Positions 50,691 through 64,000 of a DNA stretch of 64,000 bases are shown piece by piece. How positions within the stretch are numbered: the stretch's first letter is position 1; every line of letters starts with the position of its first letter. Under the pieces are notes generated by a model that was given only the letters and a program-made list of their open reading frames with translations, made no database searches and had not been told where the DNA came from. This stretch comes from Rhodoferax sp. (GTDB lineage: Bacteria; Pseudomonadota; Gammaproteobacteria; Burkholderiales; Burkholderiaceae_C): contig NZ_JAAFIX010000002.1 in the NCBI RefSeq assembly GCF_013297935.1, positions 1 through 64,000 of the forward strand, read 5' to 3'. Made by a program: the position numbers and the translations under genes.

Positions 50691-51146
50691 TTCACGGCAC
50701 CAGGAAGGTGGCCCCAAAAAATGGCTGAGTTTAGAGCTGGTCTGGCAGAACAGCTCAAAATCCAATGCGCCTTTTCTGTGATGCCGCGGTCGGGATTTCG
50801 GGCCAATCGGACACCCTGATCCGCTTCCTGCCGTCTGCCACTGCGGTGGCGATGGCGCACTCCATACGCACCCGCGCTTCTCGTGGGCTCAGCCCTTCGG
50901 CAAGGTAGACCACTTCTTCGGACACCGTCTTTGGCAGGCCAAGCCCGATCTCCCGGGCAAGGGCCGCGTAGATGCTGCGCACGACGTCGCGGTGCTGGTC
51001 GGTGTCAGGGGCTGGGATGTGAAAAACTGTCATGTGTGACAGCAGGGGCTCAGGAATTTTTGTGGCGTCATTGGCTGTCAGAAAGAACCGGACGCGGCTG
51101 ACATCCATCAGCGCATCTGGAACGGACTGATCTTGGAATCTCGAGG
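50691..51146. repeat. Duplicated segment, copy 1 (partner at 54778-55233)
   Basis: 456 bp matching 54778-55233 without any net length difference, beginning TTCACGGCACC (TTCACGGTACC in copy 2) and ending GAATCTCGAGG at the left end of the IS. It includes the non-coding lead ccaaaaaatggctgagtttagagctggtct and the 3' part of the AAA+ ATPase gene. Scattered substitutions show it is not a very recent copy. Confidence 0.85.
50755..51146 (-). pseudogene. Truncated AAA+ ATPase (C-terminal ~130 residues), cut by IS
   Basis: From SRFQDQSVPDALMDV to the C-terminus TAASQKRRIGF it parallels residues 296-424 of the intact ATPase at 54842-56116, with differences such as LSHMTVFHIPAPDTDQHRDVV for LSRLTVFHIPAPDQEQLRGVA. 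The Walker A and B half is missing; the first about 26 codons of the track ORF belong to the IS. No longer functional as an ATPase. Confidence 0.85.
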
Positions 51147-51209
51147 TGAAGCCCCCTTGAAAACCTGAGCCAGTTGGGAGTAGAGAGTTCCAACCAATGG
51201 AGTCTCTAC

Positions 51210-51476
51210 GTGAAGAAATCAAAGTTCAGCGAAAGCCAAATCGTCGGCATCTTGAAAGAGGTCGAAATGGGAGCCCGGGTCGGTGAGACGTGCAGGAAGC
51301 CCGGAGTCAGCGAGCCCACCTATTACAAGTGGAAAAGCCAATACTCAAGCATGACGATGCCGCACCTGTCACAACTGCGTGAACTGCAGGACGAGAATGC
51401 CCGTCTCAAACGCATGTACGCAGATCTGGCCTTGATGCACAACGCATTGAAGGATGTTGTTGACCGAAAGCTCTGA
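51210..51476 (+). CDS. IS3-family transposase OrfA
   Basis: 88 aa from GTG 51210: KKSKFSESQIVGILKEVEMGARVGETCRKPGVSEPTYYKWKSQYSSM (helix-turn-helix) followed by a leucine zipper LRELQDENARLKRMYADLALMHNALKDVVDRKL. Provides DNA binding to the terminal repeats. Intact. Confidence 0.9.
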   Translation: MKKSKFSESQIVGILKEVEMGARVGETCRKPGVSEPTYYKWKSQYSSMTMPHLSQLRELQDENARLKRMYADLALMHNALKDVVDRKL

Positions 51477-54777: not shown

Positions 54778-55233
54778 TTCACGGTACCGGGAAGGTGGAC
54801 CCAAAAAATGGCTGAGTTTAGAGCTGGTCTGACAGAACTGCTCAAAATCCGATGCGCCTTTTCTGCGATGCCGCGGTGGGGATTTCGGGCCAGTCGGACA
54901 CCCGGATTCGCTTCCTACCGTCGGCTACTGCGGTCGCGATGGCGCACTCCATGCGCACCCTGGCTTCGCGTGGGCTCAGCCCTTCGGCCAGGTCAATAAC
55001 CTCTTCGGGGACTGTCTTTGGCAGGCCAAGGCCGATCTCCTTTGCCAGGCTGGCGTAGATGCTGCGCGCGACTCCGCGGAGCTGTTCTTGGTCCGGGGCT
55101 GGGATGTGAAAAACGGTGAGCCGCGACAGCAAGGGCTCAGGGATTTTTGTGGCGTCATTGGCAGTCAGAAAGAACCGGACGCGGCTGACGTCCATCACCA
55201 CATCGGGCACAGACTGGTCTTGGAATCGCGAGG
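54778..55233. repeat. Duplicated segment, copy 2 (partner at 50691-51146)
   Basis: The copy that remains attached to an intact ATPase gene; see copy 1. The two lie in the same orientation about 4.1 kb apart and enclose the IS and the polymerase gene. Confidence 0.85.
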
Positions 55234-56116
55234 CGGTATCCGACTCCAGGATGCCATACAGCGCGGCAAGGGGGCTGTAAGCGGCCGCGGGATTAGTTTT
55301 GTCGATTTCATCCAGCAGTACCAAAGGGTTTGCAATCGGCCTTTCGTGGCCGCTACCCCATGCCAAGAAGTCAAAAAGCTTTCCGGGGCTGGAATTGGCC
55401 CAAAAAGTGGATGAGCCACCCAATGCACTGCCGTTCGTTTCCGCGCTGAAATCGATGAAAAGCGGCGCCCCGCCTCCCATCACCTTGGCCACGGCATGCG
55501 CGAAAAATGTCTTGCCGATTCCTGGATCGCCGACCAGCAGAACCGGGCTCATGCGATGGCGGCCGCCGGCATGAATGATGCCCAGGTGCGGGGAAATCAC
55601 GGTATCGATAACCTGCGCAAAATTCGGAAAATCTTTCCGCAGCGCGTCGGCTTTTTGCCGCCAGCCGGCCGGTGGAAGAGCCATCTCCCGGTGCGCGCCA
55701 GACTTCGAAAGCCTGTCCATGGCGCCCCTGATTCGGCGGGACGTTTCATCATCGCGGCCGGTGCCTGTGCCAGTGTGGCGCCTTTCCAAGTCAAAAACCT
55801 TGTATGACGGGCGACCCTCAGGGGCTGGGTCTTGGAGGTGCTTTTTGCTCGGCCTCAGAACCCAGTGCGTTAGCCGGCCGATGGCCTGGATCGCCGCCAC
55901 CAGGACGCCATCAAAATCGTCCGAATGAGAAAAACCGACGTCACCATCAATCGAAAATCGCACCTCAAGCCAGTCGAATTTTTTTCCGATCAGCAGTCCT
56001 GCAAGCGCGTAGCGGTAAGCAAGTAAGGCCTCATTTTCTTCCCGCGACACGCAGGCGTTGCTGTTAACAGTCACCCACTCCGGCAGTTCCGGTGGCTCGA
56101 CATATCCTTTTTCCAT
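54842..56116 (-). CDS. AAA+ ATPase (Lon/MoxR-like core)
   Basis: 424 aa. An N-terminal about 140 residues of unknown fold (contains LEVRFSIDGDVGFSHSDDFDG) precedes an AAA+ module: Walker A LLVGDPGIGKTFFAHAVA (about 196-203), Walker B PLVLLDEIDKT (about 265-272), sensor 1 FFLTANDATKIPEPLLSRL with the Arg finger region, and a lid ending LSPREARVRMECAIATAV. The core resembles the ATPase of Lon, but there is no protease domain. Same strand as, and just downstream of, the relaxase gene, which suggests a role in transfer or maintenance of the element. Confidence 0.82.
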   Translation of the reverse strand: MEKGYVEPPELPEWVTVNSNACVSREENEALLAYRYALAGLLIGKKFDWLEVRFSIDGDVGFSHSDDFDGVLVAAIQAIGRLTHWVLRPSKKHLQDPAPEGRPSYKVFDLERRHTGTGTGRDDETSRRIRGAMDRLSKSGAHREMALPPAGWRQKADALRKDFPNFAQVIDTVISPHLGIIHAGGRHRMSPVLLVGDPGIGKTFFAHAVAKVMGGGAPLFIDFSAETNGSALGGSSTFWANSSPGKLFDFLAWGSGHERPIANPLVLLDEIDKTNPAAAYSPLAALYGILESDTASRFQDQSVPDVVMDVSRVRFFLTANDATKIPEPLLSRLTVFHIPAPDQEQLRGVARSIYASLAKEIGLGLPKTVPEEVIDLAEGLSPREARVRMECAIATAVADGRKRIRVSDWPEIPTAASQKRRIGF

Positions 56117-59054: not shown

Positions 59055-60854
59055 TCATACCTCCAAGTCCATTACCACGCGAAAGCTGACCTTCGCGTTC
59101 TTGTAGGCTCCCCACGAGGTAGACCCGATTTGTCCTTCCCAAAATCGTCCACTGATCCACTCCCATTCCTGACACCACTCGTAGGCGTCCCAAGCATCAA
59201 TGAATGTCAGTCCTTGGTACTGTGCCCATGGCAGCGGATTCTTCCAAGTAGCACGAGGCGGAAAGTCATCAATCCATCGCTTACGCGACTTAGAAGTTAC
59301 TCCACTCTGCGGCGGTAGCTCTGGCACGTCTACACTTGGTTCAATGAAACGTGGCTCAGACCAGATCACCGCAGATGGCACTTCACGGCCTTCCTCTTCA
59401 CGTTGATCTGTTGCAAGTGGACGGGGTGGATATTCCTCCCAGGGAAAGCCCCTTTTCGCCAATGAATCGTAATGATGCGAATAGGCTGATCGAAGCGACC
59501 TAAGCTCCCCTCGGGTCGGAAGCCTCAGCGCGACACCAAGCTGACGCTCAAACCAAGCACAGAAAGCTTGTGAATCGACCCATGTAGCCCCAGCCGGCGA
59601 GTCATCTGGCTCACCATCATTCGCCCGCTCCCATGGCTCTTGGTTATCGGATCGGCGCTCAGCGTACCCGGTCTCAATAAGCATCCTGCGAAACGAGCCG
59701 ACAGTGATGAGCTCGCTCATGGCAACTTTACGCCCCTCAACCAGTGTGACTCTAAAACCCGGGGGAATGTCTCCAGACCACCGCACCCGCTCCAGAACAG
59801 GCAGCGTTCCCTGCTCGCGCAGCCAAGCACCTCGAACATCTACTGAACTGTTCAGTTGACGGGCCTGAATGTTTCCACCACGGTCGTAGAAGGCCTGTTC
59901 AGCCTCGTGTGCCTCGTGCTCCTCCCAAACTCCTTGGCGGAAATGTATCCGCCTATGAAGGTCGTTTTGGGTCATCAACCGCGAAGGTAAATCCTCAATC
60001 GCGAGATGATACGAATGCCCAAGGGAACTCGGTTGAGGTGGCTCTTTCTCGCGGTAATTGCGCCAAAGAATATCCCAGCCGCCATCATGGCCGCGAAGAA
60101 TCATCAAGCGGTCGCTGTAACGAAGAATATCGACCCATCCCTCCGGTTGAGGATCGAAAACAGCGCGAAAAGCAACCACTGCTGCCGTCGTACTTGCATA
60201 GTGCGTCTTACGCTCCTCTGGGTCGAAACCAGGCGCCCAGTAGGTCTTGTCAACGATATGACGCACAGGACCATCAATGAGCTTGTCGTCGAGAAACCCC
60301 CACTGCCCCATCAATTGATGTCTCTGCGTAAAGAGGTTCTCTGCACGCTGGCGCGCGCTTTCCGCACCGACAGTGAGCGAAGCGATTGCGGCTGCAGGCG
60401 TGTCATAGCCATTACCCTGATCCCAAGCTGCCCAGTTCACGCCATAACCGAGGAATACGCGTTGAGGCGCCGGAAGTTGAGCTTCGAAAAGGCGATCCGC
60501 CAGATCTCTCGGACTTGGCCCTGTACCTCCACTGAAATACAGATCTGTACAGCCACCGTTGTCAACCGGAAATACTTGGACTCGGTGGGTGCATCGGTTC
60601 CGCTTCAGGAAATCTTGAAAATCTGGCCACCCTTTCGATAGAAATGAGCCAAAGTCACCTTTAAAACCCAAGCAATTCACTATCGCGTTGAGAGTCAGTC
60701 GGTGCTGAATAGGCTCTTTTTCTGGATGTAGTACACGGCGCTTGGCACCTGCTTTGATCTCGTCGGGGGAGATGCCAGACAACGGAATGGCGTGTCCATC
60801 TCGCAGCAGCAGGTAACCAGGTCTGGGGGAGGCTTTGTTGAGGCCAATAGACAT
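59055..60854 (-). CDS. Large protein with C-terminal formylglycine-generating-enzyme-like (SUMF1) domain
   Basis: 599 aa from ATG 60854 (GGAGAAGAAT-ATG). The N-terminal about 370 residues do not match a family I know (motifs RVQVFPVDNGGCTDLYFSGGTG and RVFLGYGVNWAAWDQGNGYDTPAAA). The C-terminal about 200 residues have SUMF1/FGE-type order: MSELITVGSFRRML, ATWVDSQAFCAWFERQLGVALRLPTRGELRSLRSA, FPWEEYPP, DAYEWCQEWEWISGRFWEG and the ending KVSFRVVMDLEV (FR.V). The catalytic Cys pair of true FGE is not evident, so it may be a binding C-type-lectin-like version. Coupled to the downstream 112-aa gene. Confidence 0.65.
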   Translation of the reverse strand: MSIGLNKASPRPGYLLLRDGHAIPLSGISPDEIKAGAKRRVLHPEKEPIQHRLTLNAIVNCLGFKGDFGSFLSKGWPDFQDFLKRNRCTHRVQVFPVDNGGCTDLYFSGGTGPSPRDLADRLFEAQLPAPQRVFLGYGVNWAAWDQGNGYDTPAAAIASLTVGAESARQRAENLFTQRHQLMGQWGFLDDKLIDGPVRHIVDKTYWAPGFDPEERKTHYASTTAAVVAFRAVFDPQPEGWVDILRYSDRLMILRGHDGGWDILWRNYREKEPPQPSSLGHSYHLAIEDLPSRLMTQNDLHRRIHFRQGVWEEHEAHEAEQAFYDRGGNIQARQLNSSVDVRGAWLREQGTLPVLERVRWSGDIPPGFRVTLVEGRKVAMSELITVGSFRRMLIETGYAERRSDNQEPWERANDGEPDDSPAGATWVDSQAFCAWFERQLGVALRLPTRGELRSLRSAYSHHYDSLAKRGFPWEEYPPRPLATDQREEEGREVPSAVIWSEPRFIEPSVDVPELPPQSGVTSKSRKRWIDDFPPRATWKNPLPWAQYQGLTFIDAWDAYEWCQEWEWISGRFWEGQIGSTSWGAYKNAKVSFRVVMDLEV

Positions 60855-60866
60855 ATTCTTCTCCAA

Positions 60867-61475
60867 TGGCTATCCTTTACCTTCCCCAAAGCCGCCAGAG
60901 GGAAGAGAGATAGCACTGAATAAGACACATGTCAAAATCACGCCGATGCGGCGTAAATGAAAAGTCCATTTTGAGTGGACACATTGACGTAGCGAGAGAA
61001 CTTGCTATCGGCGCTGGCGGCACCGACGATCCTGCTGGGCGTCTCAAAGCCCGATAAAATTCTAACCCAACATTGAACTTGGTTTCAAGCTCGCACAATC
61101 ACTTTATGTGACGCTTGAGCGATTGACATGCACCCTCTCAGCCACAAGAGCCTGCGTTTAATGAACTTCGTCAACCAACCGGTTAGTGGCGAATTTGAAG
61201 AAAAGAGGCTCAAATCATTTGTTTCCTTGGTCAGGCTGAGCCGGGCCTTTACACCCTTGCGCCTTGCCTCAACGTTGATTTCAGTGAAGTCATATTCCAG
61301 AAACGGCAAGCGAATTCCACGATGTTTTCATTAAAAGACTCGAAGCACCGAGCTGACCAGCGTCAGCTTTACGCCCCTCTTCACGTTGATCCGAACTTTA
61401 TTGGCTTCAAATGAAACTCTGAGGCAATGAGTCAATTGAAAATGAAGTGTGAAACTGGAATGATTGAAGGCTGAT
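60867..61475. other. Gene-poor gap before the methyltransferase
   Basis: About 600 bp. Two overlapping small ORFs (61085..61309 minus, 74 aa; 61128..61334 plus, 68 aa) are open, but neither has a recognisable motif or clear ribosome site. The last 140 bp should hold the methyltransferase promoter. Confidence 0.4.
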
Positions 61476-62582
61476 ATGACAGTAAAGATAAATTCAAAGT
61501 TGGCCATCACTCCGTCTATTGAAGGGGTCGACCTTTTTTGCGGTGCGGGTGGACTTTCTTGCGGACTGGCAGCGCAAGGTATAAAGGTGGTCGCAGGTAT
61601 CGATGTGGACCCAGCTTGTGAGTTCCCCTACGAAGCGAACCACAAGGGCGCCAAATTCTTATTGCGTGATGTCACAACAATCAGCGGCAAAGAACTAAAC
61701 GATCTTTGGTCCCCGGGCGCTCTACGTTTGTTAGCAGGCTGCGCTCCATGTCAGCCTTTTTCAAGCTACGCAAACACGGCAACCGTCGACCAGGCTAAGT
61801 GGCGGCTGCTTGAAGAATTCGCCCGACTTGTTGATGAAAGTCAGCCAGATCTGGTCACCATGGAGAACGTGCCTCGGTTGCAAAGAGAGCAGCCATTTCA
61901 AGATTTTTTGAAGGCATTGGAGCGCGGCGGATACCAAGTGGCCTATGCTGTCCTAAATGCCGCTGACTTTGGTGCGCCGCAAAAACGAAAGCGCTTGGTA
62001 TTGGTGGCATCGCGCCTTGGCCCAGTCTCAGTTCCAGAACCGACACACAAAGGGACAAAAAACTGGGTGACTGTGCGCCAAGCCATCGGACACCTTAACA
62101 AGCTCAACGATGGCCAGACCTGCAAAACCGATCCTTTGCACACAGCTTCAAGCCTTTCGGAGCTAAATCGTGCACGGATAAAAGCCAGTAAGCCTGGCGG
62201 CACTTGGCGAGACTGGCCTCCTGAACTTGTGGCAGCTTGTCATAAGCGCGAAAGCGGCAAGCACTCCGCCGGCGTTTACGGACGTATGGAATGGGACAAA
62301 CCAGCGCCAACGATGACGACATTGTGCAACGGCTTCGGCAACGGACGCTTTGGACATCCAGAGCAACATCGCGGCATCTCGCTGCGTGAGGCTGCAATCT
62401 TCCAGTCTTTTCCAGAGACTTATCAATTCACTCCAAAAGGTGAAAGCGTAGTCATCAAAACTGTTGGTCGTTTGATTGGAAATGCAGTTCCGCCAAAGCT
62501 TGGGGAAGCTGTGGCTAAGGCACTCTATGCATCACTGCCTGCTTCGGCCGCCACTTCATTGGCCGGGACAAGAGCCAAGTAG
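61476..62582 (+). CDS. DNA (cytosine-5-)-methyltransferase
   Basis: C5 methyltransferase with ordered motifs: I VDLFCGAGGLSCGLAAQG (SAM binding), IV LLAGCAPCQPFSSYA with the catalytic Cys near residue 92, VI DLVTMENVPRLQ, VIII QKRKRLVLVASR, and X at the C-terminus KTVGRLIGNAVPPKLGEAVAKAL. The stretch between VIII and IX (target recognition) is short. 368 aa from ATG 61476; the track TTG 12 bp upstream is less likely. Its 3' end overlaps the convergent HEPN gene by 58 bp. Recognition sequence unknown. Confidence 0.93.
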   Translation: MTVKINSKLAITPSIEGVDLFCGAGGLSCGLAAQGIKVVAGIDVDPACEFPYEANHKGAKFLLRDVTTISGKELNDLWSPGALRLLAGCAPCQPFSSYANTATVDQAKWRLLEEFARLVDESQPDLVTMENVPRLQREQPFQDFLKALERGGYQVAYAVLNAADFGAPQKRKRLVLVASRLGPVSVPEPTHKGTKNWVTVRQAIGHLNKLNDGQTCKTDPLHTASSLSELNRARIKASKPGGTWRDWPPELVAACHKRESGKHSAGVYGRMEWDKPAPTMTTLCNGFGNGRFGHPEQHRGISLREAAIFQSFPETYQFTPKGESVVIKTVGRLIGNAVPPKLGEAVAKALYASLPASAATSLAGTRAK

Positions 62583-63286
62583 CGCCGGTTTTGAAGGTAG
62601 TTGTCGACCTCCATTGAAATTTTTCGCAAGGTCTCAAACACTGCGATAGAGTCAGCCTCCAGAGCAGGAACCGCGAGATCTCGACCTAAATCAGTGAAGC
62701 TCTTTTCGCCATGAGCCAACTCATTTCGATTGTTCTTCACTTTTTGAAGGGCTTGGTCTGTCAAATGGGCTGGTGGACGGTCATCGGGGGTTGGAGATAC
62801 CACTCCAAATTTCTTCAACTGCTCGTAAATAACAAGGCTATCAACGCTGCCTGAAATTCCGTCAACGCGCTTGTCCTTGCCTGAAGTTCGACTTTTCCAG
62901 TCATCCATCCAATACCTGAATAGGCTTGTATGAAGGGGCGCAGCGGACGAAAGCACTTTAGCTTTAGCGTCTTTTTTAACAGTTCGCAACACCAACCGAA
63001 GCAACTGCGCGTTCAGATCGTCCGCACTGGAGCAGTTGGCACCAATAACATCGTGCATTTCATCCAGAAGTTGAATCAACGTCGCCTCCATTGCGCTGTA
63101 AAGCAAAAGCAACAGATTTGCCTTAAGCGTGTGCGTGAGCTCCAAACCCAACGGGAACTGCACTTCACCATCTCTCGCGCTTAAGACCGCACGCCGCTCG
63201 ACCGCGACTTTCAGAAACGCTACGTATGCACTTGCCTCATGCGCTCTCTGCCTAAGGAGGTCATCCGTAAGGGGCACATGGCTCAT
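62525..63286 (-). CDS. MAE_28990/MAE_18760-like HEPN nuclease
   Basis: 253 aa helical protein. LTHTLKANLLLLLYSAMEATLIQLLDEMHDVI in the first helices and KVKNNRNELAHGEKSF carry the HEPN signature RxxxxH (R187-N-E-L-A-H192), the active-site motif of HEPN RNases. The overall layout matches the MAE_28990-type family that accompanies DUF262 proteins. ATG 63286 overlaps the DUF262 stop by 4 bp (ATGA), so the two are translationally coupled. Convergent and overlapping with the methyltransferase gene. Confidence 0.82.
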   Translation of the reverse strand: MSHVPLTDDLLRQRAHEASAYVAFLKVAVERRAVLSARDGEVQFPLGLELTHTLKANLLLLLYSAMEATLIQLLDEMHDVIGANCSSADDLNAQLLRLVLRTVKKDAKAKVLSSAAPLHTSLFRYWMDDWKSRTSGKDKRVDGISGSVDSLVIYEQLKKFGVVSPTPDDRPPAHLTDQALQKVKNNRNELAHGEKSFTDLGRDLAVPALEADSIAVFETLRKISMEVDNYLQNRRYLALVPANEVAAEAGSDA

Positions 63287-64000
63287 GAAAAGAGCCCAGG
63301 TTGTACTTCGCCCCCCTCATCCTCAGGAGTGTCCGGTGGTGAGTCAGCGTTGGCACTGTTTTCGACCACAGCGGTATCTTTATCCTCCACAAACGTCTTA
63401 CCCAATAAATTGTCACGCACATAGTGAATGCGATTTATCAACTTTGGTCGGGAGTTGCTTGCGTCAGAGCGGGTGTGTTTGATGAATTCCTTGCTGTCAA
63501 GCCACAAGTCCAAGTTCCCTGGGACAAGGTCGGGCTTTTCCCTTAGCGCAAGTGAAAGACCAACGGCGATGACTTCAAAGCGGATACGTGGAACAGTTGT
63601 GTAGCCCACTCGCTTGAATCCGTTGGGGAAATATTCAGACACAAGGTTTAGCATTTGGACAAATTCGCCAAGCATTGCAGCCTTGTCCACCTCATGAAAA
63701 CTCTGGTTCTTACTACGCAGATAATCTGTGAGGAAGTCATCGACACTTTTCTGGAAAGCTTGGTAATTGTTGAGGTAGGCGAAATACCGCAAAACGAACT
63801 CTTCGTATTCCTTTCGTTTTGCATTTCGTTCATTCAGTGGAACAAGTTTTTTGAAATCTTCATTGGCGGCACACTCTGTGATAAACGTCATAAAAGGTCC
63901 GTCAACTACGCCTCGCCGAACTTCCATAGTCGTAAGCCTTGTCCCGCCAGAGTTCAATCGATCAAACATTTCTCGACGTGCATCTTCATCGGCTTTTTCA
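63283..64000 (-). CDS. DUF262 (GmrS-like) protein, N-terminal part beyond window
   Basis: The reading frame runs off the right edge (EKADEDARREMFDRLNSGGTRLTTMEVRRG...), so the ATG at 63969 in the track is internal. FDRLNSGGTRLTTMEVRRGVVDGPF is the C-terminal hallmark of the DUF262 domain, which has a ParB/Srx-like nucleotide-binding fold and forms the GmrS half of GmrSD restriction enzymes. After it come about 200 residues of helices and an acidic tail (DTPEDEGGEVQPGLFS); no HNH/DUF1524 domain follows. It likely pairs with the coupled HEPN protein instead. Confidence 0.85.
   Translation of the reverse strand, partial: EKADEDARREMFDRLNSGGTRLTTMEVRRGVVDGPFMTFITECAANEDFKKLVPLNERNAKRKEYEEFVLRYFAYLNNYQAFQKSVDDFLTDYLRSKNQSFHEVDKAAMLGEFVQMLNLVSEYFPNGFKRVGYTTVPRIRFEVIAVGLSLALREKPDLVPGNLDLWLDSKEFIKHTRSDASNSRPKLINRIHYVRDNLLGKTFVEDKDTAVVENSANADSPPDTPEDEGGEVQPGLFS

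Follow-up and report, generated by a model that had tools for sequence, protein, structure and literature searches.

The window (the whole stretch of DNA analysed, 64,000 nucleotides) covers the first 64 kb of a contig 475 kb long. Three overlapping genes lie at its end, the last of them cut by the window boundary; the next 20 kb of the contig were also read, yielding the whole DUF262 gene. The features are as follows.

61476–62582, plus strand: m5C methyltransferase (MTase) gene, 368 aa, ATG at 61476 and stop at 62582, with an upstream TTG at 61464 as a possible start.
62525–63286, minus strand: HEPN gene of the MAE_28990/MAE_18760 family, a predicted effector nuclease, 253 aa, ATG at 63286, its stop ending at 62525.
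63283–64000, minus strand: the part within the window of the DUF262 gene (GmrSD_N, ParB/Srx-like NTPase), cut by the window end.
63283–64578 of the contig (5283–6578 of record L002), minus strand: the whole DUF262 gene, 431 aa from the first ATG.
62525–62582, between opposite strands: convergent 3' overlap of the MTase and HEPN genes, 58 bp.
63283–63286, minus strand: ATGA start-stop overlap, formed by the HEPN ATG and the DUF262 TGA.

The three open reading frames, the ATGA overlap, and the 58-bp convergent overlap, all described in an earlier sequence-only reading, proved exact to the base when re-derived from the sequence. The ATGA overlap, taken at the level of sequence, implies translational coupling of DUF262 and HEPN, and the spacing between these two genes is equally tight, mostly −3 to +7 bp, in nearly all relatives. 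A length of about 398 aa is likelier for DUF262, as its homologues begin near residue 34 in the alignment.

The HEPN protein matches PF18737 (HEPN_MAE_28990) with 44.2 bits against a cut-off of 26.8, and the same profile is matched by 41 of the 41 aligned family members. The RxxxxH motif claimed in the sequence-only reading is borne out as RNELAH at residues 187–192, with Arg187 and His192 both present and, together with Gly193, Tyr63, and Glu67, invariant in 54 representative homologues. The AlphaFold model is confident (pLDDT 92.7); a Foldseek search of the PDB with it returned no significant match and gave no structural support for the assignment, which therefore rests on the profiles and the motif. 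In PADLOC, neither the window HEPN nor the HEPN proteins of four relatives match any model. The gene is rare, being present in 1 of 399 genomes of the order (no copy besides that in the window) and in 4 of 399 genomes of the phylum.

Full-length DUF262 matches PF03235 (GmrSD_N, E = 4.3e-27), and the motifs PxYQR and DGxQR, which make up the NTP motif, are invariant in 53 homologues, as is FxRxN. A structure model of the 84% identical DUF262 protein from Xylophilus resembles ParB, BrxU, and SspE in its NTPase part, and the remainder of that model is all-helical. Profile scans detected neither DUF1524 nor any other known nuclease domain in the full-length DUF262 protein, and no DUF1524 in HEPN or in the neighboring genes scanned. 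Among PADLOC models the best match of DUF262 is NsnA (4.7e-56), with PD-T4-2_A at 7.8e-36. A likeness of the DUF262 N-terminus (residues 37–76) to polyubiquitin, at 4e-8, was set aside as a repeat-summing artefact or chance, single ubiquitin domains giving about 0.1 or worse. The HEPN protein is the only recognized nuclease candidate of the module; a 2013 survey describes the family as RNases (PMC3710099), and the most likely substrate would be RNA.

The MTase matches PF00145 (E = 1e-57 by profile search) and TIGR00675 (dcm) at 147 bits, with a cut-off of 100.65, and carries the catalytic motifs PCQ, ENV, and QxRxR, the conservation of which was scored in 45 homologues. It is the sole m5C (PF00145) gene in its genome. 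In PADLOC it scores 1.4e-93 against the generic type II model MTase_II and 2.3e-85 against DrmMII. The target-recognition region is conserved across most of the family, but no characterized relative with that region was within reach from which to read the methylation site; the only leads are a Z1-type restriction-modification (R-M) neighbor of a related MTase in Rhizobium gallicum, and BceSIV (GCWGC). Pairs of loci with near-identical DUF262 but differing MTase recognition regions were sought, and none was clear; the reverse case occurs in L105 and L110, where the MTases are 91% identical and the DUF262 proteins only 42%.

Relatives of the same MTase clade, about 41–54% identical, lie on other plasmids beside paraMORC-type GHKL ATPases (PF13589), a Z1 protein, vsr, or DISARM genes (the last in Microvirga and Deinococcus), and DUF262-HEPN is the neighbor in 10 of the 28 plasmid records with an MTase match at E < 1e-60. 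This range of neighbors suggests that the clade may represent a general self-marking enzyme to which various effector units are attached. In six records, spanning Campylobacter plasmids to haloarchaea (L152, L153, L154, L158, L159, and L160), MTases of this clade are paired with paraMORC-type GHKL ATPase genes or with other genes annotated as 'ATP-binding protein'.

Relatives of the locus were sampled by similarity to the window DUF262 from genomes of the class, plasmids, phages, and viral contigs, and were grouped into 57 clusters at 80% DUF262 identity, so that the figures describe that subfamily. Rarity of the trio elsewhere had been named beforehand as an outcome that would speak against the restriction-like reading; HEPN lies directly downstream of DUF262 in all 57 clusters, and an m5C MTase adjoins the pair in 47 of them. 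Of 114 genomes sampled from the class, only 29 have any m5C MTase at all, and against this background rate a chance grouping is excluded: the trio forms a single conserved, mobile module. Among the DUF262 genes of the class sample, 3 of 9 with a HEPN-like neighbor have an m5C MTase within 1.5 kb, versus 0 of 21 others. Three gene orders are represented, with DUF262 directly before HEPN in each: the convergent order of the window, in which DUF262 and HEPN face the MTase (35 representatives), MTase followed by DUF262 and HEPN (6), and DUF262 and HEPN followed by MTase (5). Pairwise identities of DUF262 and HEPN correlate closely (r = 0.96) and those of the MTase more loosely (r = 0.72), in correlations that still contain shared ancestry; such values are as expected for a two-protein effector unit with a separable marking enzyme.

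The module resides mostly on plasmids, prophages, and islands, and its carriers include a P2-like coliphage, Moraxella prophages, Klebsiella prophage plasmids, and a Ti plasmid. The same convergent cassette occurs in Xylophilus ampelinus (81–84% identity, with vsr upstream), in a Methyloversatilis MAG, where it is split over two contigs, and on the Polaromonas plasmid pPNAP06, whose MTase is absent from the PLSDB gene table. DISARM genes were not found in these three stretches, the one exception being an unrelated methylase of pPNAP06 that gives a weak match of the DrmMI type. In coliphage P2_4B2 (L059, 1994–3041) the MTase is split into two frames by a single-base difference at a homopolymer while DUF262 and HEPN are open; in the 99% identical L071 all three genes are intact. 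A sequencing error, phase variation, or a true loss could explain the broken frame.

Ten clusters have no MTase beside the pair: four are cut by the record end and six have room on both sides (L005, L021, L058, L070, L130, and L133). These six, and a genome with no m5C MTase at all (G785), indicate that the DUF262-HEPN pair can exist without the methyl mark. In the DUF262 tree the MTase-less members fall into few groups (L057 and L058; L005, L021, L130, and L133; and L055, which is cut by a contig end), and most of these lie outside the large convergent clade containing the window, some deep branches being weakly supported. Five such pairs (L005, L021, L058, L130, and L133) are found on IncF plasmids of E. 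coli and Salmonella and elsewhere, sometimes beside NERD or TIR genes; they are possible type IV-like relatives.

Upstream of the trio, on the same strand, lie a 273-aa gene with no assigned function and two further features:

65448–67213 of contig C12 (L002, 7448–9213): UmuC/UmuD-like pair, between the DISARM genes and the trio.
67566–83303 of contig C12 (L002, 9566–20000, and L162, 1–5303): class 1 DISARM set, with DrmC, DrmB, DrmA, and DrmMI recognized by profile.

A 1046-aa ORF at the place expected for DrmD is named by position and length only. Between DrmMI and DrmA a PDC-S39 gene (DUF7380 and DUF4209) is inserted, the C-terminus of which also has an RNELAHG motif. Beyond DISARM are an integrase-like ORF and then ORFs that are housekeeping-like by sequence. 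The integrase-like ORF, the DISARM set, and transposase-like ORFs at 51–52 kb of the window together place the trio in a mobile region rich in defence genes. An S24 peptidase gene also precedes DUF262-HEPN on pPNAP06, and with the UmuC/UmuD-like pair of the present locus this makes SOS control conceivable. On the other side, the MTase gene is adjoined by a 603-aa ORF (window 59055–60866, minus strand) that has no Pfam, NCBIfam, or PADLOC match, and whose C-terminal part, by eye, recalls formylglycine-generating-enzyme-like domains. Near-identical AAA-ATPase C-termini at 50755–51222 and 54842–56116 of the window (minus strand), of which one is complete and the other a fragment adjoining an IS3-like transposase, look like a local duplication or an insertion scar.

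We consider it on balance probable that the trio is a mobile immunity module resembling restriction-modification, with methylation as the self mark, DUF262 as sensor and gate, and HEPN as the effector. The m5C MTase would mark a short DNA site on the host genome. DUF262, an NTPase of predicted ParB/Srx fold, and the co-translated HEPN would form one unit, presumably as a complex; DUF262 would inspect DNA, and the methylated state would hold it back. When unmarked phage or plasmid DNA enters, NTP-dependent switching of DUF262 would release the HEPN nuclease, which most likely would cut RNA and so stop growth or phage production, with protection as the expected result. The grouping of DUF262 with HEPN into one effector unit is drawn from their adjacency, coupling, and co-divergence. 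Self-marking by m5C is indicated by the MTase itself and, where present, by vsr, a repair enzyme that accompanies m5C methylation. The protective role that the sequence-only reading had given to the MTase fits the vsr genes beside it in six clusters (Xylophilus, R. tumorigenes, Azospirillum, Sinorhizobium, and two others), and the paraMORC and DISARM genes adjoining its clade relatives. The accompanying suggestion that DUF262 is a modification-dependent sensor of the GmrSD kind is not supported as worded, as such a protein would attack the cell's own m5C, and the DUF1524 nuclease that defines GmrSD is absent. Since the cell carries m5C, modified cytosine cannot be a simple trigger for DUF262, which must either be inhibited by methylation or respond to another signal. 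Tentatively, the trio may further exemplify a class of restriction-modification in which DNA methylation is the self mark and a ribonuclease punishes unmarked DNA through NTP hydrolysis by DUF262, with different effector units (DUF262-HEPN, paraMORC) built on a shared MTase clade.

The division of labor between DUF262 and HEPN could be different. Anantharaman et al. (2013), in the part of their survey dealing with HEPN genes linked to R-M systems, read such genes as back-up suicide weapons (PMC3710099). In the model put forward there for such operons, DUF262, with its ParB-like fold, would itself cleave unmethylated DNA, and HEPN would be a suicide RNase held in reserve for failure of restriction, as PrrC is with a type I system. 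A PADLOC type II restriction enzyme model (PDLC03418) does match the DUF262 family weakly (3e-7 for the window, 8.7e-14 for L022). However, the DUF262 protein has no DUF1524 or other recognized nuclease domain and is modeled like NTPase switches, and the constant adjacency, translational coupling, and correlation with HEPN favor one enzyme over a main and a back-up weapon. We regard a two-weapon arrangement as unlikely.

Addiction-module behavior is known from type II R-M systems, and the mostly plasmid, prophage, and island locations of the module would suit a selfish element, with DUF262-HEPN as the toxin and the MTase as the antitoxin acting through DNA methylation, so that loss of the element kills the cell and phage defence is secondary. 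The stability of MTase-less lineages, and the occurrence of the module among defence genes (DISARM, TIR, NERD), make this improbable as the primary role, although addiction and defence are not mutually exclusive. Least probable of all is that DUF262 senses hypermodified phage cytosine, with HEPN as its effector and the MTase merely guarding against other host nucleases or regulating the locus: GmrSD and BrxU, both DUF262 proteins, act on modified cytosine, PD-T4-2 (DUF262 and HEPN) protects against T4 (PMC10952713, PMC9519451) and might sense it likewise, and MTase-less lineages exist, but retention of the MTase in most clusters and in three gene orders is unexpected for a bystander.

The association of the genes is not new, the trio having been predicted computationally in 2013 (Table 1 of PMC3710099). 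No experimental study of the HEPN/DUF262/MTase trio was found in the open-licence literature, and the window locus is a new member of the predicted kind, apparently without a bench test as far as found. Added here are the census, the gene orders, the link to vsr, the exchangeable MTase clade, and the MTase-less lineages. If the self-marking module is as proposed, DNA methylation state would be converted into RNA cleavage, linking classical restriction to abortive immunity. Plasmids and prophages carry the family widely, yet its HEPN component has no PADLOC model, so that these loci can go unnoticed or be broken up into orphan genes. Units that have an MTase and units that lack one form a natural series in which it can be tested how a DUF262 sensor is tuned to unmodified or to modified DNA.

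Several known systems share components with the trio. The class 1 DISARM set, located 3 kb upstream in the same orientation, has its own DrmMI, while class 2 DISARM uses an m5C enzyme, DrmMII; assignment of the window MTase as DrmMII of the neighboring set was rejected, since in Xylophilus and Polaromonas (L007 and L009) the trio is present but DISARM is not, and since the generic type II model fits better. The MTase has the feature of type II R-M, a site-specific DNA methyltransferase (PF00145/TIGR00675, with catalytic motifs), but in place of a cognate endonuclease of known nuclease fold its partners are DUF262 and HEPN, in which no DNase domain was found. GmrSD and BrxU (type IV, modification-dependent) have in common with the window protein the N-terminal NTPase part of DUF262. 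In contrast to these systems, the window locus lacks a DUF1524 HNH nuclease, fused or adjacent, has a separate HEPN partner, and carries its own m5C MTase, an enzyme that would endanger its own host if the system responded to modified cytosine. The window DUF262 is NsnA-like, as in Menshen (NsnABC), but HEPN and MTase take the place of NsnB and NsnC, neither of which was matched in the flanking genes scanned with PADLOC, and membership was rejected. PD-T4-2 (Vassallo et al., 2022) has the same two-gene core of DUF262 and HEPN, with demonstrated phage protection. It has no MTase, and the window DUF262 fits NsnA better than PD-T4-2_A; membership was rejected, as component B is absent by PADLOC from the window HEPN and from those of the four relatives. 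The paraMORC-linked type II R-M loci share MTases of the same clade, a neighboring predicted effector gene, and sometimes vsr; their effector is a GHKL ATPase, whereas that of the window is DUF262-HEPN. Closest are the operons of the MAE_28990 HEPN family, listed in Table 1 of Anantharaman et al. (2013) as 'in operon with a ParB nuclease and DNA methylase genes' (PMC3710099). The listing is a single line, and the portion of the article's text available gives no gene order, census, or experiment for the set. Common to that listing and the window are the HEPN family with an intact RxxxxH motif, a partner of the ParB superfamily (DUF262), and a DNA methylase nearby; in the window trio the MTase is convergent rather than co-directional, vsr is sometimes linked in its relatives, and the MTase relatives are shared with other defence loci.
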